Virus record (IMG/VR): IMGVR_UViG_3300042470_000199
Coordinates: 1-25,995 of that record
Reading direction: 5' to 3' (one strand)
Length of the DNA: 25,995 bases
Source: a virus
This document shows, piece by piece, positions 3,601-21,012 of this stretch. The position numbers and the translations under genes are program-made. The notes under the pieces are model-generated. The model made no database searches and was not told where the DNA came from. It was given only the letters and a program-made list of their open reading frames with translations. Numbering within the stretch: position 1 is the first letter of the stretch; the number at the start of each line of letters is the position of its first letter.

Positions 3601-4035
3601 ATGGATGAGGGCATCCAAGACCTTGTGTCCCCTGAAGAAAAGCAAGCAGTCCCTGTGGACAAACTTGCAGGCATCTACATCAAGATTCGAGACGCTCGCG
3701 CAAAGCTGAAGTCTGACTACGAGGCTCAAGACACCGAGCTTCAAGAACAGATGGATGTGATCGAAGAGCAACTTCTTGAAGCTTGTAAATCAATAGGTGC
3801 TGACAGTATCCGCACAGCAGCAGGTACTGTGATTCGTAGTGTGAAGAGTCGGTACTGGACCAACGATTGGGACAGTATGTATAGCTTTGTACGCGAGCAT
3901 GATGCGTTCGGGTTATTAGAACGGCGTATTCACCAAACCAACATGAAGCAGTTCATTGAAGAAAATCCAAGTTTGCTGCCGATGGGTCTGAACACCGACA
4001 GTCGTTACAGCATTGTTGTCCGTCGTAGTAAGTAA
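3601..4035 (+). CDS. Conserved-looking phage protein of unknown function (144 aa)
   Basis: It opens the transcription unit behind the promoter at 3541 and has a strong ribosome site (AGGAG 3590-3594, 6 bases before ATG). Residues about 20-65 form a charged helical, probably coiled-coil, segment (KIRDARAKLKSDYEAQDTEL onward). A compact C-terminal half follows, containing TVIRSVKSRYWTNDW and RRIHQTNMKQF. There are no catalytic motifs or membrane segments. The overall look, a helical arm followed by a basic SVKSRYW strand, recalls small phage proteins found next to single-strand-binding and primase genes, but I cannot name a family. A role in replication or recombination is suggested only by position. 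Its strong promoter and ribosome site suggest high expression. Confidence 0.8.
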   Translation: MDEGIQDLVSPEEKQAVPVDKLAGIYIKIRDARAKLKSDYEAQDTELQEQMDVIEEQLLEACKSIGADSIRTAAGTVIRSVKSRYWTNDWDSMYSFVREHDAFGLLERRIHQTNMKQFIEENPSLLPMGLNTDSRYSIVVRRSK

Positions 4036-4048
4036 CCAAGAGGAACCT

Positions 4049-4921
4049 ATGTCAAACGTAACAGTATTTCAACAAGAACTTCCAGACTTCCTTAAGAATG
4101 CCGAAGTCGATGAGATGACCAAAGCCCTTGCAGGGGGTACACAAAACCGTCGCATCTCGATCCGTGGTGGTCGCTTCCGTTTAGTTATTAATGGCGAAGA
4201 AGTATCTAAGACTGATAAGCCAGAACTCGACATCATCGTTGCTGCCGGACGTAAAGAAAACTCACGTATCTTCTATGCAAAAGCCTACAACCCCAAGGAG
4301 ATCACACCTCCCGATTGTTGGTCAGATGACGGTATAACCCCACATGCCAAAGCTGAAAACCGTCAGGCTAACACTTGTGCAGACTGCCCCCAGAATATCG
4401 CAGGGTCAGGATCAAATGGCACTCGTGCATGTAGATACCAAAAGCGTTTAGCAGTTGTGCTTGCCAATGATCCAACCAATGGGTTGTTTCAGTTGACGCT
4501 GCCTTCACAGTCGATCTTTGGTAAAGGCGATATGGATTCGATGGGCTTTGACCAATACGCTAAGTATGTTGCAGGTAACGGCAAGAGCATCAATACAGTC
4601 ATAACCCGCATGTCCTTCGATGGCGATAGCGATGTGCCTGTGCTTAAGTTCCGTGCAGTAGGTTATGTGAACCGCGAGCAGTATGAGTCGGCACTGGAGG
4701 GTGGCAAGTCACCGGAAGCGCAGCGCATGCTGTCGTCTACCGTAGCGCAGATTGATAGCGTCAAGGCACTTCCCAAAGCTCAAGCTGCACCTGCACCCGC
4801 TAAAGTTGCCGAACCCGAAGAACCCGTGAAGCGTCCAAACAAAAAGCTTGAACCTGCCGAGGTTGCTGAGAAGAAGCGAGATCTTTCCGCAGTATTAGAC
4901 GCTTGGGGCGACGATAACTAA
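4049..4921 (+). CDS. Phage replication-region protein with four-Cys cluster, possible ssDNA-binding protein
   Basis: A 290-residue protein. The start is ATG 4049, with AAGAGGA at 4038-4044 directly upstream; an earlier in-frame start would overlap the previous gene and lacks this site. Residues 35-80 look beta-rich (RRISIRGGRFRLVINGEE onward). Four cysteines, Cys90, Cys110, Cys113 and Cys128, form a likely zinc site (CADCPQN ... GTRACRYQKR). A long Ala/Pro/Lys-rich linker (about 250-280) ends in an acidic tail, AVLDAWGDDN. A basic beta-rich body with an acidic tail is the usual plan of phage single-strand-binding proteins, where the tail contacts the polymerase or helicase. Placement between SNF2 and primase genes fits. 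The SSB role is inference; the ORF itself is secure. Confidence 0.85.
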   Translation: MSNVTVFQQELPDFLKNAEVDEMTKALAGGTQNRRISIRGGRFRLVINGEEVSKTDKPELDIIVAAGRKENSRIFYAKAYNPKEITPPDCWSDDGITPHAKAENRQANTCADCPQNIAGSGSNGTRACRYQKRLAVVLANDPTNGLFQLTLPSQSIFGKGDMDSMGFDQYAKYVAGNGKSINTVITRMSFDGDSDVPVLKFRAVGYVNREQYESALEGGKSPEAQRMLSSTVAQIDSVKALPKAQAAPAPAKVAEPEEPVKRPNKKLEPAEVAEKKRDLSAVLDAWGDDN

Positions 4922-8207: not shown

Positions 8208-8235
8208 ATCCCCGCCTCCCTGCGGGGATTTTTTT
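8208..8235 (+). terminator. Rho-independent terminator ending the replication module
   Basis: An eight-base stem, ATCCCCGC (8208-8215) with GCGGGGAT (8222-8229), encloses a six-base loop and runs into T residues at 8229-8235. It sits between the convergent gene ends, 56 bases after the last plus-strand stop, and stops plus-strand transcription. On the minus strand the same stem follows the stop of the 2102-aa gene but has no U-tract after it, so it should work poorly in that direction. Confidence 0.9.
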
Positions 8236-11200
8236 ACTCTTTAGCTCTAAGCTCTAAGAGTTCGCGGCGGTTCATCGGGTTAGCAATATACAACCCTTGA
8301 TCGACAACCCGCTCCTGCCTACGCCGAGTTTGATCCGACTGATTGATGTTGGCAAATGTGATGCGACGACTTGGATGCTTAATCCCAAACTTCTCGATGT
8401 CTTCCATCACATCATCAAAGTCTTCATCGGATATACCGCGCCGCGCATAGACCGCACGTTTCAACAGCTCAGTGCGCTCTTCTTCCCGTTCCTGCTCAAG
8501 CTTCTTAAGCTTATAGTTCTCGGATTGTTTTGCGGATACTTTGATTGGTGCAAAGCCAATACTCTGCATCGCAATGTCCATCCAATCGAGGTCTTCCTTA
8601 GCGACAACCTCGTAGCCTTTCGGAGTTTTTACTCCTTCTTCGCTAAAGCGATATGCCTTAACCGGCTGGCGTACGATTGAAGGTAGCATCGTCTCAATAG
8701 CACGTTCAGTCTGCCCCTCTTTGAATCTATCGTACGCACGTTGAGCGTTTTCATATAACCCAAAGCTTGGACCGAGCAGCCCCTTAAATTCCCAATCTTG
8801 GAAAAATAAATCGTTAAGTTTGACCCGTGCGTTGAAGTCTGCACCTGTTAGTCCAGTAGCCGGACCCATAGCGACATAGGTTGCTACGTTGGCACCGAAG
8901 TTTTCAGACAGCCACTTCTTGAACCAAAGATCAAATCCGTACTTACGGATCTGGAAGGCTGCACTATCTTCGTCATCGTCATCATCACCAAAGGCACTTA
9001 ATACTTTCTCAGCAACAGTAGTGATAACCGTATACAACGGGAAGCCTGTCACCCCTGCAAACATACCTGTCATACCCAAAGTGCCGAAGAACCTTGTTGC
9101 GGCTTGTTTCCTAATCGTAGGATCGGCACCCTTGAATATCTGTAAGAAGTTGGTTGTGAGATAAAACGCCGTGTTCTGGGAAAATTTCTTAAATTGAAAG
9201 AGCGTACGACCAACAGGCCCACGGAAATATCGTGGCGTATCAAAGAGCGAGTAGTCATACATCGCATCGTGCGTTAGGTCCAAAGCCTTTTTGGTAGCGT
9301 CTTCGTGAGAAAGACCTTGCTGTCGCCCGATACGGTACGCAGTCATTGCCATCATCTCTCGTGGCAGTTGTTCTGTCATCGAGAACATCGTAGAGATAGC
9401 ATCTGTAGCAAACTGCACAGGCACTTTCAAAATGTTAGGGTTAGTAGCTTCTTGAGAAGGGGACTTGACGACATTGAGTAAGTCCATCGAGCGGTTAAAA
9501 GAGAAGAGGTTGTCAGCCGCAAACTCATCGTAGGCTTTGATTTCATCAGCCTTAGTCAAGGCGTTACGTATAGAAGGCATAACATATTCTGTCTTACCAT
9601 CAACCTTGCGACGGAACCCAACCTCTTTGTACACATTCAGGAACCGCAGCAGTTCTGTGTGCACAGCCTTAGCGCCGCCAGGAGTCTTGCCGTATTCAGC
9701 AAGTAATGTGGGGTAACCAAACACAGGCAGTGAAGTCATGTTCGTCAGAGCAGACGAGATCGAACTCATGTAGTAGAAGAAGTTAAACGTCGAGAGTCCG
9801 TTGGCTGCAAAGTTCAGGATTGAGTTTTCATTCTTAGGATTAACGACAGCGTCAAAGTCCTCTGCTACTTCTTCGATATAGGTTCTGTATTTGGCAGAGT
9901 CTGGGTCATCTTTGATGGACTCTTTTGCTTCACTTATTCCGTTAACGATCTGTGGTTGGAACTCCATCTTGGCAAGTTGATTGGACATGCGGAAACCCGC
10001 AGTGCCAAAGTTACGCAACGCATCTGCACTAAAACCTGCTGTATTTTTACGATGGATAAACTGTTTGCGGAAGCTCTTCTCCGGCAACGTTAGCAGGTAC
10101 ATCTGATAGATCTCATCCTTGATCGCAGCCTTATCGGTATCAGTGCCTAACTTATCTACCGCTGCGAGGACTTCTTTTAGCTTTGTTGTATCGGCAAAGC
10201 TTTCTTCCATCATGCCGCTTAACTGATCACCACGCTTAAAGGTCTGGTCATCATATAAATCTTTAGCAGGTTTACCCATCTCCTTAGCCCTACGCAGGGC
10301 AAACCGATTGCGCTCCGAGGCAGACTCAAACATATAGAACTCCATGTCTTTGCCTTTGCCTACACGCAACCAGTTCTCTCCATATCTCATGAGAGGAAAA
10401 TAAGGATAAGCAACCTTGTCTGTCTCAAATTCTTTTTTGAGCAGCTCCATAAATTTAGTTTTTTCTGCGTCTTCTATGCCCATTACTTCAATACGTTTCT
10501 TTAGCAGCTCTTTGTATTGCTCGTATTGTTTAGCATAGTAGTTACGCACATCAACATAGATCTTGCGCCCAGGTTCGCCAAGCTTTTCCCACAGGTCATC
10601 CAGAGTATCTGACTGAGGCGTAGACGCAAGACGATCTTTACCAGGAATGCTTGGGTCTATACCGTTAACCGTAGCCAAGTGCATGATCGTGGCAAGCAAC
10701 TGACTTTGTTCTCTGTCGTTGCGCTGAAGCTTCAGCCAAGGCTTCATGATGCCTTTCATCTCGTCAAGGTACTGCTGACGCTTAGCGTTGAACTTCCTAC
10801 CAAGATCCACGACACGGGTAAGCGCAGGGACTTTATCTTTAACAAGCTTGGCAATCTGACTTGGGGTAAGTGCACCGATTAGATGCTTACGCGATACAGA
10901 CATACCACCTTCGATAACAGCACCGGCAAGTTCAGCCTGACTAGACACATCCATGCCGTTAGCAATAGCTTGATCGAGAAGCGACACGCTCGGACCTTGG
11001 CTGCGCGGAGTACGGATTACGTCATTACCGTATTTGACTTGCACTTCAGCAGCAGTTTGTACGTCTTGCTTTTGGCTAAGCGCTTCTACCGTTTGAACCG
11101 CAGCGGCTGTATCGGGCTTAAATTCTAAGAGCGTATTTGTAGCGTCAATCAAACCGGCGAGAGCAGATTCATCATTCTTGTTTAACCCAAATAACTGACG

Positions 11201-14200
11201 GATCGTAGCTACGAAACCTTTAGATACAGTGGTCTTTTCAAACGGTACAGTCTTTAAGAACGCTTGAAAATCTGGATCTGTCATGCCGTAGGCAAGAAAT
11301 TCGTTTACGTCAACTAAAGCTTTACCTTTAGTAAAAGTTCTATCTAAAGCTTTTGCAAGGTATGCTTCAACAGAATCAGGTGCACCTTTTTCTAGTTTAT
11401 CTACAGCCTTTCTAGTAGCGTCCATCAACCGCACTAACTTGCGATACGCAAGCACTCTAGGGTCTGAAGATTTAGGATCACTTGCTAGGATGTCTTTGCC
11501 TTGGGATATTTTTATAGCGGTAGCTGCATGTAACAACTCATGCAAAACAGTCTGGTTGTTTACCCCTTGTTCGCCGCCAATATTTGTACCTGCTACGTAA
11601 ACGTGAGGCACTCTAAGGATGTCCCTAGGAAACTCTCCGCGCTCCAAAGCTGCTCTGTCTGCTTGGCTTAAGGGCATGCTTGTCTGGGGGAAGAACAAAC
11701 CCTTACTCTTACGACTCCTGAACGCATTCAAAATAGCAGAATTAGATGCAGCATCTACAATTACAAAACGAACTGCGCCTAATGTAGAAGCTAGTTTTTG
11801 GGCTAACGTCCGTTCAAAATCTGTACTGTTACGATCAGTAGCAATTAGTTGAGCAGCCTCCCTGCCGTTCCTTGGCTTGCGCTTTTCAAAGTTCTTATTA
11901 ACTTCGGCACTTGTAGAATCTTCCCCTGTTTCTACTTGGCTTAGCGGTGCAGTCGGACCTTCAGGCTTCTCAAGCACACGCTTTTTCTTCTTAACAGTAA
12001 CAACGGGCGCAGGGCCAGTAGGCTGTGCTGTTTGCACAGGTGGCGCTTCTTCTGCTAATTCAGTGATCTTTTGTTCGATGTCAGGAGCAGGCGCAGCCCT
12101 AGCACCTTCAACTCTAGTCTTTATGAGATTCCGTATATCTACAGGTGCACGGTTGAACTGCGCTTCGGCCATTCCTTTAATGCGAGTAGTTGCGAGCTGA
12201 GGTCTCGTACTGAGGTCATACAGAACTTCAAGCGCAGGGTAAATGCTCTCATAAAAGTTTTTACGCAAAACAGCCAACGCTTCGGGGTTAGATGTTTTTG
12301 ACTTAAGAATATTGTCGAGCGTCCGCTCTTCAAACAGAGTCTGGTAGGTTTTCCTTGGGCCTTCGGGTGTTTCAGGTCTTGGACCGAAGAACCTATCAAG
12401 TTGAACAGCAAGACCTTCCTCGCCAGTATCAACGCGCTTCTTAGTAGAGGTAATTAAACGCTCTAAGAAATTAAGAACGCTAGTCCAATCTTTTTTCTCT
12501 GCCGCCTTAGTAGCTCTTTCTTCTTCAGTCAGCTTAGGCTTGGGACCACGTTTAGCAAGAGGCTCGGCTGCAACTCCAGTGACGTTAGCAATAGCATCTC
12601 GTAGCGTCTTACCTACAGGCGTTACTACACCGTCATCTTCCCGCACCCACATATTGTCTCTACGGATGATTTGAACCTTATCACCATTAGAGAGTTCTAA
12701 AGTCTTTACGCTTTCTCCGGCTGCATTTTTACCGCTAGGCTGCTTGACAACTTTAGGGGGCTTGGCTGCTGTGGCAAATTCTGCCACTTCTGTTCCTTCA
12801 GTAGGCGCTGCTGCTCCCTCTTCTTTTGCTTGCTTGGCTTCGGTGGGCGTAGTGACACTGGGGGTTTCCTCTATAGGTTTAGTTTCCTCTATTGCACCGG
12901 ATGGTGCCTCTTCTCTTCGTACAGGTTCTTCAACAACAGGTGCAGCGCGTTCCACTCGCTCGGTGACAGGTGGCTCAACTCTAGCGGTGGGTACTCCTCC
13001 AGCGGGTTCGCTAGGAATTGGAACGCTTTCTCCACCTGACTGTTCGATAGTTTTAGCAACATCTTCGACCTCCTTCGCGGCTTCGGCTTGAACTTTAGCA
13101 ATCTCGGCCTGTGCTTGCTCAACCTCTTGGTCATTTTTTTCCTCTTCCGCTACTTGTGCAGCAGCTTGAATTTTTGCTTTGTCAGGTTCTATGCCAGCAG
13201 CTATGTACTCGTCGGTAAGTTCATTGATCCGAGAAGTAACTTCATCAACTTTAGCAGTAGCTTCAGCAACCTTTTGTTCGGGGGTGACGGGAGCTTGTTC
13301 TCCTAGTTGCTCTGATACTGCTTGCTGAGCAGCAGTCAATACATCCGCAGCAGATGGTGCTTCTCCGACAAGCTCACTAGCTCTACCTGCAACTGCTTCG
13401 GGACTAACCGCAGCGGCTTGGATTTGGAGTTCTTTCTTAGCCTGCTCTGCGTCAATCCTATCTTGGAGTTGTTTAATCTGTTCGTCGCTAGCACCAGAGT
13501 CACGGGCAATTTTTATTGCGTCACGAGTAGCTAACCCCCCGCCTAATGCAGCACCAGCAAGGGCTTCAAGCACCCCTGCACCCACCACACCCCGCATCGT
13601 TGGCGTTTCGGCCAACGGTTTAATACCTAACTCTTCACCTGTCCGTTGTAGTGCAATATTCTCTGCGGCTTTTTCTTGCGCGGCCTGAGCAAATTCAGGA
13701 AGAGCTTCTTTGCCTGCTTCAGCACCAACCTTTTTAGCTGCGGCTACTGCACCTGTTTTAGTCGCAGTTTCTGCTGCTTCTTTAGCTGCTACGTTTGTAG
13801 CAATTTTCTTAGACAGCGCCCCAATTACTTGTTTCTCAGCACCAGTACGCCCAGCAATCGCGCCAAGTCCAGCCCCGGCAAGGATCATGTCTAAGTTTTT
13901 ACCACCGTATTCTTGGGCTTTTATAGCGGTTTCTTCTGCTTTCTTTTCATCAACACCAGCTTCTTTAAGCGCCTTCTTGGTCTCTTCGTAAATAGTGCCT
14001 TTGACTGTACCCGCGCCCATAATAGCGCCAAGACCTAGCGTAGTAGCTCCAGCAACAGCAGCGACAGGGACAGCGGCAGGGGCAAGAAAGGTAGCCCCAA
14101 GAGCACCAATAATAGTGGGGGCAGCAGTACCAAGGGCTTGAACCGTAAGATCTACGGGAGCAGTAGCAAAAGCTTTTAATCCTGCTTTTACGTTTTCAAG

Positions 14201-14542
14201 GACGCCTTTATCCTCAGCGTCCTTCATGATCTTAGCTATTTCTTGTTGGTCGTTCTTAGCCTGAGCTGATAGTAGACCACCTAAATAATCTTCAACACTT
14301 TTAATATTTTTTGATGTTCCACTACCTGCACCAAAAGCATCCGCAATCATGCGGACACCAGACACTGCACCTTTAGCTATACCTACCGGAACATCAGCAA
14401 CTTGACGAAAGATTGACTCTTCTTCTACTACTGGAGGGCGACCATCCCGTTGTCTTTGAGCAGCGAGCCATTCTTCTGGTGACATCGCCTTAATAGGCGC
14501 AGCACTACCCTTCTGAGAAGCAAGCCATTCTTGGGGGGACAT
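8234..14542 (-). CDS. Giant polyvalent internal virion protein with HExxH metallopeptidase motif
   Basis: At 2102 residues this is the largest protein here and the last gene of the virion operon. It starts with a duplicated tag (MSPQEWLASQ at 1-10, MSPEEWLAAQ at 20-29). Ala/Gly-rich hydrophobic stretches follow (about 141-178, 217-231, 317-337), then a long Glu/Gln/Ala coiled-coil region (about 350-500) and a Pro/Glu/Thr-rich linker. A zinc peptidase motif, HELLH at 1001-1005, has a candidate third ligand, Glu1081, in NEFLAYG. The C-terminal half is helical, with aromatic hydrophobic segments, an acidic run of Asp near residue 1850 and a charged helical tail. Its plan resembles the polyvalent (PLxRFG/LPD-type) proteins of podoviruses, which are thought to be packaged and ejected into the host. 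The start overlaps the previous stop by one base (TAATG). Peptidase activity and ejection are inferred. Confidence 0.85.
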   Translation of the reverse strand: MSPQEWLASQKGSAAPIKAMSPEEWLAAQRQRDGRPPVVEEESIFRQVADVPVGIAKGAVSGVRMIADAFGAGSGTSKNIKSVEDYLGGLLSAQAKNDQQEIAKIMKDAEDKGVLENVKAGLKAFATAPVDLTVQALGTAAPTIIGALGATFLAPAAVPVAAVAGATTLGLGAIMGAGTVKGTIYEETKKALKEAGVDEKKAEETAIKAQEYGGKNLDMILAGAGLGAIAGRTGAEKQVIGALSKKIATNVAAKEAAETATKTGAVAAAKKVGAEAGKEALPEFAQAAQEKAAENIALQRTGEELGIKPLAETPTMRGVVGAGVLEALAGAALGGGLATRDAIKIARDSGASDEQIKQLQDRIDAEQAKKELQIQAAAVSPEAVAGRASELVGEAPSAADVLTAAQQAVSEQLGEQAPVTPEQKVAEATAKVDEVTSRINELTDEYIAAGIEPDKAKIQAAAQVAEEEKNDQEVEQAQAEIAKVQAEAAKEVEDVAKTIEQSGGESVPIPSEPAGGVPTARVEPPVTERVERAAPVVEEPVRREEAPSGAIEETKPIEETPSVTTPTEAKQAKEEGAAAPTEGTEVAEFATAAKPPKVVKQPSGKNAAGESVKTLELSNGDKVQIIRRDNMWVREDDGVVTPVGKTLRDAIANVTGVAAEPLAKRGPKPKLTEEERATKAAEKKDWTSVLNFLERLITSTKKRVDTGEEGLAVQLDRFFGPRPETPEGPRKTYQTLFEERTLDNILKSKTSNPEALAVLRKNFYESIYPALEVLYDLSTRPQLATTRIKGMAEAQFNRAPVDIRNLIKTRVEGARAAPAPDIEQKITELAEEAPPVQTAQPTGPAPVVTVKKKKRVLEKPEGPTAPLSQVETGEDSTSAEVNKNFEKRKPRNGREAAQLIATDRNSTDFERTLAQKLASTLGAVRFVIVDAASNSAILNAFRSRKSKGLFFPQTSMPLSQADRAALERGEFPRDILRVPHVYVAGTNIGGEQGVNNQTVLHELLHAATAIKISQGKDILASDPKSSDPRVLAYRKLVRLMDATRKAVDKLEKGAPDSVEAYLAKALDRTFTKGKALVDVNEFLAYGMTDPDFQAFLKTVPFEKTTVSKGFVATIRQLFGLNKNDESALAGLIDATNTLLEFKPDTAAAVQTVEALSQKQDVQTAAEVQVKYGNDVIRTPRSQGPSVSLLDQAIANGMDVSSQAELAGAVIEGGMSVSRKHLIGALTPSQIAKLVKDKVPALTRVVDLGRKFNAKRQQYLDEMKGIMKPWLKLQRNDREQSQLLATIMHLATVNGIDPSIPGKDRLASTPQSDTLDDLWEKLGEPGRKIYVDVRNYYAKQYEQYKELLKKRIEVMGIEDAEKTKFMELLKKEFETDKVAYPYFPLMRYGENWLRVGKGKDMEFYMFESASERNRFALRRAKEMGKPAKDLYDDQTFKRGDQLSGMMEESFADTTKLKEVLAAVDKLGTDTDKAAIKDEIYQMYLLTLPEKSFRKQFIHRKNTAGFSADALRNFGTAGFRMSNQLAKMEFQPQIVNGISEAKESIKDDPDSAKYRTYIEEVAEDFDAVVNPKNENSILNFAANGLSTFNFFYYMSSISSALTNMTSLPVFGYPTLLAEYGKTPGGAKAVHTELLRFLNVYKEVGFRRKVDGKTEYVMPSIRNALTKADEIKAYDEFAADNLFSFNRSMDLLNVVKSPSQEATNPNILKVPVQFATDAISTMFSMTEQLPREMMAMTAYRIGRQQGLSHEDATKKALDLTHDAMYDYSLFDTPRYFRGPVGRTLFQFKKFSQNTAFYLTTNFLQIFKGADPTIRKQAATRFFGTLGMTGMFAGVTGFPLYTVITTVAEKVLSAFGDDDDDEDSAAFQIRKYGFDLWFKKWLSENFGANVATYVAMGPATGLTGADFNARVKLNDLFFQDWEFKGLLGPSFGLYENAQRAYDRFKEGQTERAIETMLPSIVRQPVKAYRFSEEGVKTPKGYEVVAKEDLDWMDIAMQSIGFAPIKVSAKQSENYKLKKLEQEREEERTELLKRAVYARRGISDEDFDDVMEDIEKFGIKHPSRRITFANINQSDQTRRRQERVVDQGLYIANPMNRRELLELRAKE
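14456..14542 (-). repeat. Duplicated SPxEWLAxQ tag at the N-terminus of the giant protein
   Basis: Residues 1-10 (MSPQEWLASQ) and 20-29 (MSPEEWLAAQ) are near-identical copies separated by a nine-residue Lys/Ala/Pro linker. Eight of ten positions match. The copies sit at the very start of a packaged protein, where a docking, packaging or processing signal would be expected. That role is a guess. Confidence 0.7.
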
Positions 14543-16143
14543 TATTTAGTACCTTGCTCTTTTACGTATTGCGCCCATTGTTCATCAGAAAATCCTGACG
14601 GTCTAGTATAAGTTTTACCGTCTTTGGCTTTAACTTCTTTTGGTAAGTTAGCAGGAACAGCGGCACCAGGGGCTGCACCTGACCTTGGACTCAGTCCATA
14701 CTCAACCATAAGGTCTTTTTTGATTGTCTCTTGTTGAGTTTGCAGTCTAGTTAATTCTTCATTTTCTTTGGATGTCAAAGAAGGTTTCTTCATTAACTGA
14801 GAAATTCTAAAGGCGTTATTTTGGAACGTAGGATCATTCTGCAAATCTTCTCTCATTCTCCCCCTTGCAGAAGACTGTGCTTGTAATGCGCTTGACTGCG
14901 CTGTTAATGCTGCATTTTGAGCGGCTAACCCTCTAAGTTCTGCGGTAACCCCAGCCATCTGCGCCTGAGCTTGCATCTGGTTGATACGTCCTTGGGCTAG
15001 AGCTTCATTGATAGAGAGCTGTTGTTGCTTTAACTCTAGTGCACGTTCTCTTAGCGCAGCTTGAGATGCGGCTTTATCTCTACCAGACAAGTAAGTAGCA
15101 CCAGCTTTAGCAGCTTCGGTAGACAGGGCTGCAACATCTTTCTCCCTGCTATATGCCTTATCAAGCAATGCTTGCGCTTCATCTGCGGCTTTCTTAGCAA
15201 TGTCATCACGCCCACGTTCTTCTGCAAAGTCTGCTTCTGCTTGTTTGCGTTTTGCCGCTGCAATGTATTGCTGGGCTTTGAGATCGCGTTCTTCTGCTTT
15301 ACCACGCTCACCTGCAATACCCTTGGCGATGCTAGCAATGCCACCAGCCAGACGCATACCCCTCAAATCAGTGGGTAACCCCGCAGCAATTCCCTGCCAT
15401 ATATCGGCTGGTTTACCTCTAATAGCAGCAGCGGCTTCTTCGTCTAGTCCTGCTATACCTTGCTTATATTTGCCGTACTGCTCTTCAAGTTCTTTCCTCT
15501 TTTCAGCTTTTAATTTTGCTCTGGCTTCGTCACTTAAAGTAGATATGGCAGAGAATGCAGCTAGTCTTTCCGCAGGATCTAGCAGCCGAGCAAGTATGTC
15601 CTCTTCTTCTAAATCGTCTTTTGACTTTCTGGGGGCGCTAGCAGGTACTGAAAAAGAAGGACGATCTTCATTAAACGCACCCAAATCAGGTGCTACCAAC
15701 CCACGGCTAGCATACCCTTCAACACTGCCGCCACGGTTAAACACAATACCGCCGTTCATAGCAGTAAACATATCTTGAGGGACGGGTAGTGCAGCGATAC
15801 CTTGCTCGCGGACTTGGAGATCCTGAGCTTTTTTAGCCATGAGTGCACCCATCACACCAAGTTGCTGTTCTTTCTGAGCAAGGGCTTGTTCTCTAGCTTG
15901 GAGCTGTTGAAATGTTGTTGGGCTTTTTGACGGGTCGTTTTGCATCGCCATTTGCCGTTGATTAGCCGCACCCATAGCACCACGTTCATTAAGCGCCATA
16001 GCTGCTGCGCCCATAGGTCCGGGCGTAACTTGTCCAGTGGGTTGGGGTGGTCGCCCTGCTGCGTATTGTTGCAGTTGAGGGGTTGGGACTCTTTGCAGGA
16101 CAGCTTGAACCTGCGGCCCATCGGGAGGAAAAGGAATCGCCAT
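14542..16143 (-). CDS. Internal virion protein, Ala/Gln-rich coiled coil (533 aa)
   Basis: A 533-residue low-complexity protein placed just before the giant polyvalent gene. The N-terminus is Pro/Gln-rich (about 1-45). A helical segment (80-125) leads to a Gly-Gly motif (NGGIVFNRGGSVEGY, about residues 129-145) also found in two upstream neighbours. The centre and C-terminal half are long charged then Ala/Gln-rich coiled coils (about 190-440), followed by a short tail with a GFSDEQWAQYVKEQ motif. No enzyme motif or signal peptide is visible. AAGGG, 9-10 bases before the ATG at 16143, overlaps the previous stop. Size, composition and position match podovirus internal core proteins that are ejected with DNA. 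It could also be a scaffold-like protein. I recognise no named family. Confidence 0.8.
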   Translation of the reverse strand: MAIPFPPDGPQVQAVLQRVPTPQLQQYAAGRPPQPTGQVTPGPMGAAAMALNERGAMGAANQRQMAMQNDPSKSPTTFQQLQAREQALAQKEQQLGVMGALMAKKAQDLQVREQGIAALPVPQDMFTAMNGGIVFNRGGSVEGYASRGLVAPDLGAFNEDRPSFSVPASAPRKSKDDLEEEDILARLLDPAERLAAFSAISTLSDEARAKLKAEKRKELEEQYGKYKQGIAGLDEEAAAAIRGKPADIWQGIAAGLPTDLRGMRLAGGIASIAKGIAGERGKAEERDLKAQQYIAAAKRKQAEADFAEERGRDDIAKKAADEAQALLDKAYSREKDVAALSTEAAKAGATYLSGRDKAASQAALRERALELKQQQLSINEALAQGRINQMQAQAQMAGVTAELRGLAAQNAALTAQSSALQAQSSARGRMREDLQNDPTFQNNAFRISQLMKKPSLTSKENEELTRLQTQQETIKKDLMVEYGLSPRSGAAPGAAVPANLPKEVKAKDGKTYTRPSGFSDEQWAQYVKEQGTK

Positions 16144-16155
16144 TTTTTAATTCCC

Positions 16156-18432
16156 TTATACTGACTTTAACGCAGTACCAAGCCCAAGTGCAGCAACTAG
16201 AGCTTCTAAGTTTGGACTAATACCTGTAGCTGCGGCAGAAATAGGCAACCCACCTAAAACTTGATTGGCGTACATAATCTCACGGTATGGATCTAAGTAA
16301 GTATCCCGCGCTTGCTGGTACTCAAACGCACGAGTAGTCTCGGCTGCACGTTGGGCTTCTTGCAGTTGTTGTAGAGCTAACGAAGCACCAAACTGATCGC
16401 CTCTAGCCTGAGCTTCTTCGGCCTGTTGCTGGAGCTGTCGCGCTGCTTGATCGTACTGTGCAGCAGTTTGCGCTGTTTGTAAGCCGTATTGAGCACCGAA
16501 CTGTTTAGATTGCTCTGTCAATCTACTTGCATCAAGCCCAAGTTGGGCAGCAGTCTGTGCGCTTGTGAGTGCTTGTTGACCTGCTGCTTGACGAGCTTGT
16601 TCTTGAGCGGTTTGTGCTTGCAGTCCTAGTTGTCCCGCAGTGGCTGCGGAAGAAAGTGCTTGTTGACCTGCTGCTTGTCTTGCCGCTTCGGTTGCAGTTT
16701 GTGCTTGGAGGCTACGAGCTTGGTCACGTTCAAACTGCTGCTGCGCGTTCAAGAAGGCTTCTTGCTGCCCTTTACCGTAAATATCACCGATCTGCGTAGC
16801 TAAATTACGCTGTCTTTCAACATCAGCAAGAACATTTCTAGTACCACCAAACGCACCAGCTTGGGCGTATTTAGCCGCATTAGCCATACCTGCTATTTCA
16901 GATTGGCGCTTAGCTTCCCGCACTGCCGGATCAACAACCCCCGACATATAAGGAGACATATACGCATCACGCTGAGCAGTGCCAAACGTACCTGTTGTTA
17001 TGCCTGTTGTCGGTGCTTGGTAAGTTGTAGGAGCAGTGTACCCAGAAGAAATGTTCCCCGCTGTGTACATATTAGTAGGGGCGGTATACCCAGAAGTAAC
17101 CGTAGTGGGCGAAAACGCAGTGGGAGCATCGAATGTAGAAGGCACAGTCTGCCCTGTAAACCCACCATCTGCATAAGAATCATCTGTTAACGAGGCTACA
17201 CCACCCTGTGAAAACCCAGCCAACCCTTGGGACTGCAAATAATCCCAATCGCTTTGAGACTGCGGACCCATGTACGTAGTTGCTGCGTTACGTAACGCTT
17301 GATCGGCACCTTGCATGTAGTCTTTATAGAAATTAATTTTATCTTGAGCCGACCCTTGTGATAAAGACTTTATTCCTTGCGCTGTTAAGGATGCGTTAGG
17401 GCTGGCAAAAGAAAACTTAGAAGGTGTATACATGGGCGTTGCCCCTGCACCTGTACCCATACCCATCATATTTTGGCGTTCAGTTTGAAGTGCTTTTAGT
17501 GTATTAGCCGTATCGGTACCGTAGGTGGTACCAAACTTGGTTGCTTGATATTGTGGCGAATCTCGTTCAGCCAAAAGCCCTGACATACGGGAAAGGTAAT
17601 CAGTGACATACGGACCGTAAAACTCACGTAATCCTGACGCACCTTTAAAATCTACTCCCTTACCACCTTCGTATGTACCTTGGTAACCTTTAGCTAACTC
17701 AGCATATTTAGAAAATAAATCTGTCTCAGCTAGGTTAGGCGTAGTCGTTACTAAATCTTGCAGTGCTTTTGTTTGGGTTGCCTTAATGTTTTCAGGACTA
17801 TATGTTTCTTTAATACTGGCAATTGTATTTGCGTCAACCCCGTTTTTTGCCATGTTATCCAAGGCAGTTTGAGTAATAGGCGTACCCGTCAATGCAAGTG
17901 TATTAAGATTTCCTGAACCCGTTGTACTAACTTTTGCAGCAGCTTCATTTAACTGTGTAGGAGAAAGGCTAGCTAAACTAAGGTTCTGCCCAGATTCTAA
18001 ATATTCATTAAGGACTTTATCGTAACCGCCGTATTGATTAAAGTTAGTAGGAGCGGTATCCGCCACCCCTGTAGACATAGATGCTTCAATTAGCTTTTCT
18101 GCAATCTCAGGAGTAGATGTATATTTTGCACGGATGTCATCATCCGACATACCTTGGTTTACTAAAGACGCAATAACAAATTTAGGAATGCCTAATTGAT
18201 TGGCAAGGTCTTCAACTCTTTGATTGGCAGCAGGTGGTGTTGGCGCAGGTTCGGGAATACCTAATAATTTAAAGTTTGCTTCTGTTGCGCCACTAGGATC
18301 AAGCTCTGCAATCTTAGCTTTAATTTGCTCTGGCGTAATGCCATTATTTAAAAGCGTTGTAATGTAGCCTTGTTTTGTTCCTAATGATGCGCCTGAGTTC
18401 CACGACAAACCAAAAACATCATATATAGCCAT
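16156..18432 (-). CDS. Internal virion protein with Gln/Ala tandem repeats (758 aa)
   Basis: A 758-residue protein. The N-terminus holds two similar helical segments (around NNGITPEQIKAKI and NQGMSDDDIRAKY) that may be a duplicated UBA-like or three-helix unit. The middle carries GFSQGGVASLTDDSYADGGF, a Gly-Gly motif shared with neighbours, then Thr/Pro/Gly/Tyr-rich repeats (SGYTAPT twice). The last third is a Gln/Ala coiled coil with two 29-residue tandem repeats (584-641) containing ARQAAGQQAL. It ends in a short hydrophobic Ala/Leu-rich segment. GAGG lies 6 bases before ATG 18432, and the gene follows the previous stop by 2 bases. Such proteins form the inner core or ejection apparatus of short-tailed phages. 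Exact role unknown; not a recognised enzyme. Confidence 0.8.
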   Translation of the reverse strand: MAIYDVFGLSWNSGASLGTKQGYITTLLNNGITPEQIKAKIAELDPSGATEANFKLLGIPEPAPTPPAANQRVEDLANQLGIPKFVIASLVNQGMSDDDIRAKYTSTPEIAEKLIEASMSTGVADTAPTNFNQYGGYDKVLNEYLESGQNLSLASLSPTQLNEAAAKVSTTGSGNLNTLALTGTPITQTALDNMAKNGVDANTIASIKETYSPENIKATQTKALQDLVTTTPNLAETDLFSKYAELAKGYQGTYEGGKGVDFKGASGLREFYGPYVTDYLSRMSGLLAERDSPQYQATKFGTTYGTDTANTLKALQTERQNMMGMGTGAGATPMYTPSKFSFASPNASLTAQGIKSLSQGSAQDKINFYKDYMQGADQALRNAATTYMGPQSQSDWDYLQSQGLAGFSQGGVASLTDDSYADGGFTGQTVPSTFDAPTAFSPTTVTSGYTAPTNMYTAGNISSGYTAPTTYQAPTTGITTGTFGTAQRDAYMSPYMSGVVDPAVREAKRQSEIAGMANAAKYAQAGAFGGTRNVLADVERQRNLATQIGDIYGKGQQEAFLNAQQQFERDQARSLQAQTATEAARQAAGQQALSSAATAGQLGLQAQTAQEQARQAAGQQALTSAQTAAQLGLDASRLTEQSKQFGAQYGLQTAQTAAQYDQAARQLQQQAEEAQARGDQFGASLALQQLQEAQRAAETTRAFEYQQARDTYLDPYREIMYANQVLGGLPISAAATGISPNLEALVAALGLGTALKSV
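16510..16683 (-). repeat. Two 87-base tandem coding repeats
   Basis: Two 29-codon units (16683-16597 and 16596-16510) encode ARQAAGQQAL...AQLGL-type sequence. At the DNA level a 23-base string (AGTGCTTGTTGACCTGCTGC plus TTG on the plus strand) is identical at 16568-16590 and 16655-16677, 87 bases apart. Flanking sequence on both sides is a degraded version of the same unit, so the coiled coil probably grew by duplication. Confidence 0.8.
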
Positions 18433-18434
18433 GA

Positions 18435-19943
18435 TTACCTCGGCAAAAATTTATTGGGGTTGATTTGTTTACCCTGTTTGGTGTTTCCGGTACGAGCGCC
18501 ACGAATACGATCCATCATTTCGTAAAGACGCTTTGCACCAGCATTTGAATTGCCGTTACCCAAGTGGCTAACAACGTCGGCAGGGATCACGAACTCACCA
18601 TCACTTAGCGCAGCAGGTCGTTTACCTTCAATATGAGCAGGTACTTTATCAGCCATACCATCGCTGTGTCCATCTAAATAGCGCCCCTGCGCCATACCTA
18701 AACTCATCACACCACCAGCAGCACGTTGCTGCGTAGTGTCTTCCCCCATCTTTAGGGCTTGTAACGAAGCTAAACCAGAATAACTTGACCCTAATTCTTC
18801 TTCATCACCATTTACGCCTTGAGGCATTCCAGCACGACTCAAATCAGCGTTGCTCATATTCCCTGAAAATTCGTATTCAGGGTTTAGCATGGAAGCTGGC
18901 ATATTACCTTCATAGAGCTGAGGTATACCTATATCGTAAGTAGGCTCCCCCATTAATTCACTTATATTGGCTTCATAATCAGACCGAGCCTGTGCAGATG
19001 GCATAGCCAATGCGCGTATAGTATTTGCAGTTTCCTCAGTCCTTGCATTTAATCTAGGTGAAAAATCCAACCCAGACTCGTCATATCCTCTATAGATGGG
19101 CCCAACTCCAAAATTACTAGCATAAACTTCTAACGCTTCTGGATCTGTAAGCCCTAGATTTTTTAAATCGTTTACAAATTTTGTTATATCTTTTTCTGCT
19201 TGGGATTTAGCAAAACGAGCATAATCCGCCCCCGCCGCCTGCGGTCCTGTAGCTGGGTTTAATTGTTTACCCCTAGCAGCAATCATTTCATCTTGCAGTG
19301 ACCCGCCCTTCTGCAAGCTCATTACCCCGCCCTGAGCAGCTTTTTGGAATCTAACGCCACTAGGACTACGTATAACTTTTTTAGCTGCTCCACCAGGAGC
19401 TTCCCACCCACGAGCTTCTTTACGCGCAGCTTCTGCATCATCCCTAGCCATTTTAGCTATAGCGAGCATAGCAGCGTACTTAGCGGCATCCGAACCAGAA
19501 ACCCCAGTTAGATTTTTTACAGCGTCACCTAGAGTATTTAAAAACCCTTTAACACCAGACGCATCAGCGGATTCAGTTTTAACCCCCGTATCTCCTTGGG
19601 GTCCAATATTTGCAACTGCATTTTCCCCACCAAGTACCGTGGATTGTTGCCGCAAGAGTTTTTTTGTTTCTGGATCTTGAAGTAATGTATCTAATGCGGC
19701 AGCATCTTCGGGGAACGCCGCTTTGAATTGGCTTAATAATTCAGGATCAGATAATAAGCTAGTCGCCCCCAACGAAGATAACTTTCCAGTTTCGTCAAAA
19801 AACCCAGAACCCACGGGCATATTTGCAGCTAAAAGATCTAAATCTACATTAGATAAATTAACACTCCCCGGATCGAATATAGTGCTACCTATATCTCCGC
19901 CACCATCAGAACCATCTTCAGGAAAAGCAAACATACCACTCAT
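18435..19943 (-). CDS. Virion protein with GG motifs and C-terminal SDGEFVIPADVV domain (502 aa)
   Basis: The start is ATG 19943, backed by a perfect GGAGG (19949-19953) with 5-base spacing; an in-frame upstream start at 19973 would run into the previous gene. The N-terminus is acidic and Asp/Ser/Gly-rich. An Ala/Lys-rich helix lies near residues 150-185. Two copies of GGVMSL occur, in AAQGGVMSLQKGGSL and AAGGVMSLGMAQGRYLDGH. The C-terminal domain (about 415-480) carries HSDGMADKVPAHIEGKRP and then the run LSDGEFVIPADVVSHLGNGN, ending in NAGAKRLYEMMDRIR. I recall this domain in several environmental short-tailed phage virion proteins, but know no established function. The extreme C-terminus is basic. 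Probably an internal core or tail-associated protein. Confidence 0.82.
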   Translation of the reverse strand: MSGMFAFPEDGSDGGGDIGSTIFDPGSVNLSNVDLDLLAANMPVGSGFFDETGKLSSLGATSLLSDPELLSQFKAAFPEDAAALDTLLQDPETKKLLRQQSTVLGGENAVANIGPQGDTGVKTESADASGVKGFLNTLGDAVKNLTGVSGSDAAKYAAMLAIAKMARDDAEAARKEARGWEAPGGAAKKVIRSPSGVRFQKAAQGGVMSLQKGGSLQDEMIAARGKQLNPATGPQAAGADYARFAKSQAEKDITKFVNDLKNLGLTDPEALEVYASNFGVGPIYRGYDESGLDFSPRLNARTEETANTIRALAMPSAQARSDYEANISELMGEPTYDIGIPQLYEGNMPASMLNPEYEFSGNMSNADLSRAGMPQGVNGDEEELGSSYSGLASLQALKMGEDTTQQRAAGGVMSLGMAQGRYLDGHSDGMADKVPAHIEGKRPAALSDGEFVIPADVVSHLGNGNSNAGAKRLYEMMDRIRGARTGNTKQGKQINPNKFLPR

Positions 19944-19944
19944 A

Positions 19945-21012
19945 TCAACCTCCGGGCTTACGCCGTGCTGCAATCATGGGTGCAGCAAAATTTAAAAACT
20001 TCATCACGGCAGCTTGTTGTTTGGGATCAACCCCCATACTCTGCCCAGCTTGATTCAGACCATAGTTAATTGCAGCGTTTTTTACTGCGGTGGTAGGGTC
20101 AAACTTCTGCCCAGTTAGTAATGAGGTAACACCAGATGTTGCTAACGATTTAGCGGGGGTATACAGCGACCCAAGACTTTTATCCAACCCAAGGGTTGCG
20201 CCTAGCGAATTAATACCTGCACCAACCCCACCAGCAATAGCGCCAGACTTAAACCCTTTGGAGAAGTCACCACCCATTGCTTTAGACAACGCACCTTGGG
20301 TAACACCGGAGACAAGCGCATTAGAAGCTATAGGTGCGAAAGACCCAAGCCCCGCCGATAGTGCGCCAGTAAGACTGCTAGTTGCACCACCCAATAAAGC
20401 CCCGGCTCCCCCAAAAGGCATAGAAAGAAGCGAACCTACTTTTAGGGCAGTAGCTACATTCTTAGCATCAGGGTGCTCACCTTTGTAATACGTCGGGTCA
20501 CCAATAGGAACAAGTTTGTCGCCCTTGGGGATGTAAGCTTGCGCCATGCGTTCGCGTTCGGTACCCCCTGTTTTACCACCCATAAACAGTACATACTCCC
20601 CTGAGTTAAGTTGCTCAGGGGTTAAGGAATCTAGTTCTACTTCAACAGGATTGCCTTTTTCATCTTTCTTGTAAGCTTTGGTAAATGTCGTTTTGTGACC
20701 CAGTTGCTCGCCAAACTTTTCGCGCATCAAATCGCTAGCTGTCTTTGCTTGCTCTTCTTCGCCAACAACATTACTTATTTGCTCATCAGTACCGTATATA
20801 GGCACTTTCTTTTTGCCAAAATCAGTCAACCCCGCAAACGGGTTAACAAGCGACTCTCCAGCAGTCCAGCCTGTATCAGCCTTTGCGCCTTTAGGGGTTG
20901 CACCATACTGCGTAGCTCTTCCAGACAAGTAATTGTCAAGCGCCTGTTGCTGCTGAAAAGATTGCAGCTTTTTAAGAGCGTCTAGCTGTGCGGGTGTTAG
21001 TGTCGTGCTCAC
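19945..21012 (-). CDS. Probable internal virion protein, Gly/Ala-rich hydrophobic core (355 aa)
   Basis: A 355-residue protein. Residues 1-35 are a Gln-rich helix. Residues about 70-175 form a charged, probably alpha/beta domain that includes GEYVLFMGGKTGGTERERM. Residues about 190-300 are Gly/Ala/Ser-rich with membrane-like stretches (SLLSMPFGGAGALLGGATSS, GAIAGGVGAGINSLGATLG). This is typical of phage proteins that insert into or cross the host envelope during DNA ejection, or of the ends of tape-measure-like proteins. The start is GTG 21012, nine bases after the previous stop, with no clear ribosome site, so coupling to the upstream gene is likely. The next in-frame Met is far inside, which supports GTG. 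No family recognised. Confidence 0.75.
   Translation of the reverse strand: MSTTLTPAQLDALKKLQSFQQQQALDNYLSGRATQYGATPKGAKADTGWTAGESLVNPFAGLTDFGKKKVPIYGTDEQISNVVGEEEQAKTASDLMREKFGEQLGHKTTFTKAYKKDEKGNPVEVELDSLTPEQLNSGEYVLFMGGKTGGTERERMAQAYIPKGDKLVPIGDPTYYKGEHPDAKNVATALKVGSLLSMPFGGAGALLGGATSSLTGALSAGLGSFAPIASNALVSGVTQGALSKAMGGDFSKGFKSGAIAGGVGAGINSLGATLGLDKSLGSLYTPAKSLATSGVTSLLTGQKFDPTTAVKNAAINYGLNQAGQSMGVDPKQQAAVMKFLNFAAPMIAARRKPGG
19949..19953 (-). promoter_or_regulatory. Ribosome binding site that fixes the start of the 502-aa gene
   Basis: Perfect GGAGG on the minus strand, 5 bases before ATG 19943. It overlaps the last codons of the preceding gene, whose TGA ends one base before the ATG. This rules out the longer reading from 19973. 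Confidence 0.85.

Follow-up and report, generated by a model that had tools for sequence, protein, structure and literature searches.

A giant gene closing a block of late genes

The window, by which we mean the whole 25,995-nucleotide stretch of viral DNA analysed here, carries an intact ATG-started gene for a 2102-aa protein with a single HExxH motif (Table 1). The virus record comprises 25,995 bases in full, and the genome it represents may therefore be incomplete. On the minus strand, the gene comes last in a block of late genes that encodes a phage lysozyme as well as a structural protein of the virion; by analogy with its relatives, the 2102-aa product is itself probably a virion protein. 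Three neighbouring proteins of 533, 758 and 512 aa (window 14542-19973, minus strand) have short GG[VI] motifs in common (QGGVMSL, AGGVMSL and QGGVASL), which may represent shared binding or processing sites.

The protein opens with a short repeat of the form MSPxEWLAxQ. In phage P1, the first 30 residues of DarB direct it to the capsid (PMC9024508), and a role of the repeat as a packaging signal is therefore conceivable. A preceding sequence-only reading had also pointed to N-terminal hydrophobic runs, and these are real but of moderate strength.

Table 1. Features of the 2102-aa protein and its gene, in window coordinates.
Feature	Position	Strand	Evidence
2102-aa polyvalent protein gene	8234..14542	(-)	ATG-start ORF; aligns over most of its length to viral-contig ORFs of 2052-2383 aa
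N-terminal repeat MSPQEWLASQ...MSPEEWLAAQ, residues 1-10 and 20-29	14456..14542	(-)	kept in 2 distinct relatives, L004 and L013
Hydrophobic run, residues 140-176	14015..14125	(-)	Kyte-Doolittle 19-residue means > 1.6 (starts at residues 140-158)
Second, weaker hydrophobic run, residues 319-337	13532..13588	(-)	single 19-mer, Kyte-Doolittle 1.63
Predicted zincin-type metallopeptidase (MPTase) domain, residues 871-1158	11069..11932	(-)	profile 257 bits (built with the window sequence included); PHROG 2206 4.8e-17; AF2 model
Exchanged cassette with MPTase, residues ~861-1160	11063..11962	(-)	DNA-identity drop and recovery against L003; differences at the amino acid and synonymous level
HELLH, residues 1001-1005, predicted to supply two metal ligands and the general base Glu1002	11528..11542	(-)	H, E, H invariant in 102/102 distinct domains
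Glu1081, predicted third metal ligand	11300..11302	(-)	invariant in 102/102; on second helix after HELLH in model
LPD39 domain, residues 1217-1361	10460..10894	(-)	PF18858, 64.9 bits (cut-off 27)
PLxRFG / DarB-like C-terminal module, residues 1380-2088	8279..10405	(-)	NF032893, 423 bits (cut-off 100); phrog_10089 5e-81

The ~900 residues that follow the predicted metallopeptidase (MPTase) domain form a DarB-like/PLxRFG module with LPD39, and the best-scoring isolated phages match the full-length protein from residue 1184 or later only. In the DarB-like antirestriction PHROG the match is confined to this C-terminal module (PHROG positions 3946-4640 of 4647), and a family scan revealed neither a methylase nor a helicase domain, so the protein does not classify as a DarB antirestriction protein. 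Nor does it classify as an N4-like virion RNA polymerase (vRNAP), as Pfam, PHROGs and NCBIfam revealed no T7-type RNA polymerase domain in the 2102 residues. Its make-up of MPTase, LPD39 and PLxRFG/DarB-like module, to which relatives add ART-PolyVal and ATPase domains, combines unrelated domains including an LPD, and this marks it as a phage polyvalent protein (cf. PMC5512222). Directly behind the MPTase, residues ~1161-1200 (KQDVQTAAEVQVKYGNDVIRTPRSQGPSV, window 10942-11062, minus strand) are highly conserved in close relatives.

An invariant HExxH site in a highly diverged domain

The sequence-only reading had proposed a gluzincin-like zinc site composed of HELLH at residues 1001-1005 (nt 11542-11528) and Glu1081 (nt 11302-11300), the latter within VNEFLAYGMTDPDF; both elements lie at exactly these bases. 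Residues ~871-1158 align with relatives from uncultivated viruses, and across 102 distinct homologous domains, whose mean pairwise identity is 40% and whose minimum is 17%, His1001, Glu1002, His1005, Glu1081 and Phe1082 are invariant (102/102) while the two middle residues of HExxH vary. Between the window and its nearest relative (L002), the MPTase has a dN/dS of 0.09.

The viral scan based on the A1 query had used patterns containing the motif and was biased accordingly, so we repeated the assessment through the C-terminal module, with a search pattern outside the MPTase. The 68 ORFs considered are those extending at least 350 residues upstream of that module; three come from hand-chosen isolated phages and several are near-identical. 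In this motif-free search 63 of the 68 relatives contain the MPTase, and every one of the 63 has the HExxH. Loss of the motif in close homologues would have spoken against the proposed site, and the motif is retained. The five ORFs scoring nothing are L101, Klebsiella phage SopranoGao, L141, PBC5 and Vibrio phage douglas; L101 and SopranoGao have a different HExxH ~180-200 residues ahead of the module, and L141, PBC5 and douglas have no HExxH there. In SopranoGao_6 (L165) this is HELFH at residue 3286, ~180 residues ahead of the DarB-like module and without a match to the MPTase profile, possibly a remote MPTase in the equivalent place. The A1-query scan of genome contigs found no relatives.

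HExxH is a short motif that could in principle arise without function, and it does so in 0.4% of 2000 residue shuffles of this His-poor 2102-aa protein, although none of the 2000 combined it with E[FL]xxY inside the searched downstream span. Its invariance across such diverged homologues, together with the homology of the domain to described MPTase-bearing proteins, contradicts a chance occurrence and leaves that explanation with a negligible probability.

The domain is related to metallopeptidase domains of virion-interior proteins

Zincin-type MPTase domains of phage polyvalent proteins were described by Iyer et al. (2017), with the phage MPTase defined in N4 vRNAP (PMC5512222). No Pfam model detects the window domain, and searches of 50 members with E-values up to 10 did not return a plausible peptidase family for a single one. 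PADLOC gave no match. Each of the 50 domains in the alignment has a match to PHROG 2206 (virion RNA polymerase), the window domain with 4.8e-17, and together with the alignment of the motifs this establishes homology to a recognised MPTase through N4 vRNAP. Searching the sequences of solved proteins with the domain profile returned chain G of 9sfn (3.5e-25), PhiM1 gp48 (8vb2, 1.6e-4) and, weakly, N4 vRNAP (11fw, 0.015); these matches came from the profile search only, phmmer with the full protein against PDB sequences having found nothing. Over its matched stretch, 9sfn is identical to gp37 of LUZ19 and LKD16, an internal virion protein; we found no publication for PDB 9SFN.

An AF2 model of the domain built from 50 sequences (pLDDT 82, pTM 0.77) predicts three strands followed by a helix bearing HELLH; after an inserted helix comes the one that contains Glu1081. 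This order agrees with the MPTase core described in PMC5512222 and hence fits a zincin, and sequence, conservation and AF2 secondary structure together put the HExxH on a helix and the glutamate on the next conserved helix. Foldseek matched the model to predicted vRNAPs, to internal core proteins of the phiKMV-like type and to polyvalent proteins of uncultured origin, with E-values as low as 1.8e-9; against the PDB, neither the domain model nor the C-terminal model gave a significant match to a solved structure. We also considered a fold common to the C-terminal region and N4 C2 but do not claim it, because that Foldseek search was not significant and the C-terminal model is modest (pLDDT 71.5). 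Homology and conservation thus support the zinc site of the sequence-only reading as a predicted zincin-type His-His-Glu site of a polyvalent protein, with the putative ligands on the two helices that a zincin would have. On sequence and model evidence residues ~871-1158 appear to be a zincin-type MPTase of an already described kind, for which the peptidase reading is well supported; the domain was not placed in any of the 12 published MPTase clades (PMC5512222).

The protein shares parts with several known systems. Like the polyvalent MPTases of PMC5512222, the domain has the HExxH helix, the downstream Glu helix and three preceding strands, and occupies the centre of a giant LPD-bearing protein; it differs from them in being invisible to every Pfam model. 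The C1 domain of N4 vRNAP contains a homologous MPTase (HELVH and NEFMAWG) that is also followed by a large helical region, whereas in the window protein no RNA polymerase domain turned up and the C-terminal region could not be matched to N4 by sequence. Homologous MPTases also occur in the internal virion protein gp37 of LUZ19/phiKMV (PDB 9SFN; HEAVH and KELVAWG in LUZ19) and in the tetrameric ejection protein gp48 of PhiM1 (8VB2; HEAAH and HEF), but these proteins are shorter, at 1337 and 1263 aa, and LUZ19 gp37 is without the DarB-like C-terminal module. Conversely, the DarB-like/PLxRFG giants of PBC5, SopranoGao and douglas 12A4 have that module, about 870 residues long, in common with the window protein (profile E 2e-118 or better) and differ in giving no match to the MPTase profile, SopranoGao having just its divergent HELFH in the corresponding position.

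N4 vRNAP, LUZ19 gp37 and PhiM1 gp48 are proteins of the virion interior (PMC5512222, PMC11440229, PMC12633501). Delivery together with the DNA is shown in the literature for the MPTase homologues only. JC1 gp69, a candidate homologue, was detected in virions by mass spectrometry (PMC9144972); there was no Burkholderia phage among the matches listed.

The metallopeptidase behaves as an exchangeable cassette

Comparison with one relative, L003, exposed an exchange of the MPTase. The two proteins are 96% identical over residues 601-870 (synonymous difference 0.09) and again 96% identical over residues 1217-2102 (0.19), whereas their MPTases are 45% identical with a synonymous difference of 0.71. 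At the DNA level, identity is ~95-100% up to residue ~860, where it sinks below 70%, and it rises again at ~1160; these two points are the domain borders. Further pairs among 90 distinct proteins show divergent MPTases in like flanks, and reverse pairs combine MPTases that are 85-98% identical with C-termini of 46-47% identity. We rejected fast protein evolution alone as a cause of the low MPTase identity in view of the rise in synonymous differences (0.71 against 0.09 and 0.19), which points to recombination, and of the reciprocal combinations. Among related phages, the MPTase behaves as a swappable cassette. Mosaicism is general in phage proteins, and cassette exchange is thus no proof of a host target.

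Among the isolated phages checked, the C-terminal module occurs without this MPTase in PBC5, SopranoGao and douglas, and the MPTase without the module in LUZ19, N4 and a Limnohabitans phage. The two parts have two ancestries, and they are joined in the window protein and in many of its relatives from uncultivated viruses. A limited literature search found neither the cassette exchange nor the explicit link to phiKMV-type ejection proteins, and the cassette exchange appears to be new.

Two neighbouring segments were observed alongside. Residues 601-870 exist in two forms in close relatives, with either ~76-99% or 43% identity to the window, and were apparently swapped independently of the MPTase. 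In the exchange with L003, the conserved residues ~1161-1200 belong to the C-terminal flank.

A putative endopeptidase acting after delivery

We consider it fairly probable that residues ~871-1158 are an active zinc endopeptidase of a polyvalent protein that would be packaged in the virion and ejected along with the genome. His1001, His1005 and Glu1081 would hold the metal, Glu1002 would activate the water, and the peptidase would work after delivery, inside the cell that has just been infected or in that cell's envelope. Cassette exchange, together with the cargo enzyme domains that longer relatives have beside the MPTase, fits a delivered effector module. The sequence-only reading had further suggested that the peptidase might disarm host defences or open the envelope; for envelope opening by this domain the analysis gave no supporting result.

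It had also suggested that the peptidase might mature the virion protein itself. In a maturase version of this idea, the domain would sever its own chain before packaging or in the course of it, with just a fragment entering the head. The position of the MPTase between modules would suit this, and P1 DdrB, which has a C-terminal MPTase, is processed before packaging, with autoproteolysis as the published guess (PMC5512222). N4 vRNAP with its homologous domain is, however, packaged unprocessed and reported full length (PMC5512222), and no degradation of the recombinant protein was observed (PMC12633501), which together argue against obligatory self-cutting before packaging; the exchange of divergent alleles within near-identical frames also counts against it, and we regard self-maturation of this kind as unlikely. 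Somewhat less credible still is a purely structural domain, a building block of ejection proteins that kept its metal site without catalysis. Homologous domains do reside inside the tetrameric ejection protein of PhiM1 and the internal virion protein of LUZ19, and the PhiM1 paper gives no enzyme activity for its ejection protein, but the general base Glu1002 is invariant and would be unneeded in a structural metal site, which points to catalysis rather than to metal binding alone. That the HExxH belongs to an enzyme other than a peptidase, for example one with a hydroxylase-like fold, is very improbable: the N4 study names radical-SAM/alphaKG-HExxH proteins as an alternative for the N4 domain (PMC12633501), but His-His-Glu spacing and helix order are those of the described zincin MPTase, and family scans of the window proteins found no partner radical-SAM gene or domain.

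For the endopeptidase acting after delivery, we would place a host protein slightly ahead of the polyprotein itself, whose parts would otherwise be released, as the substrate. Peptidases of ~45% identity swapped into a near-identical frame fit a variable substrate slightly better, but the swap is not decisive, since a cleavage site could sit inside the cassette. The question of substrate has accompanied the zincin domains of ejected phage proteins since their first description, and cassette exchange offers a clue to a possibly varying target. The link to the solved ejection proteins of the culturable phages N4, LUZ19 and PhiM1 makes the reading testable by a single active-site substitution. 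Being invisible to Pfam, the MPTase is missed by automatic annotation.

More speculatively, and with a probability that we put well below that of the endopeptidase reading itself, the MPTase might be an interchangeable, host-matched protease effector common to the ejected proteins of N4-like, phiKMV-like and DarB-like podophages, with alleles being swapped because they cleave different host targets during genome entry.

Longer relatives have ~700-1000 extra residues between the MPTase and the C-terminal module. Three of these longer proteins were scanned (L047, L032 and L061): L047 contains an ART-PolyVal ADP-ribosyltransferase (residues 1302-1606), and each of the three gave a GHKL-type ATPase match slightly under the curated cut-off and a weak match to a YgjP-like metallopeptidase.
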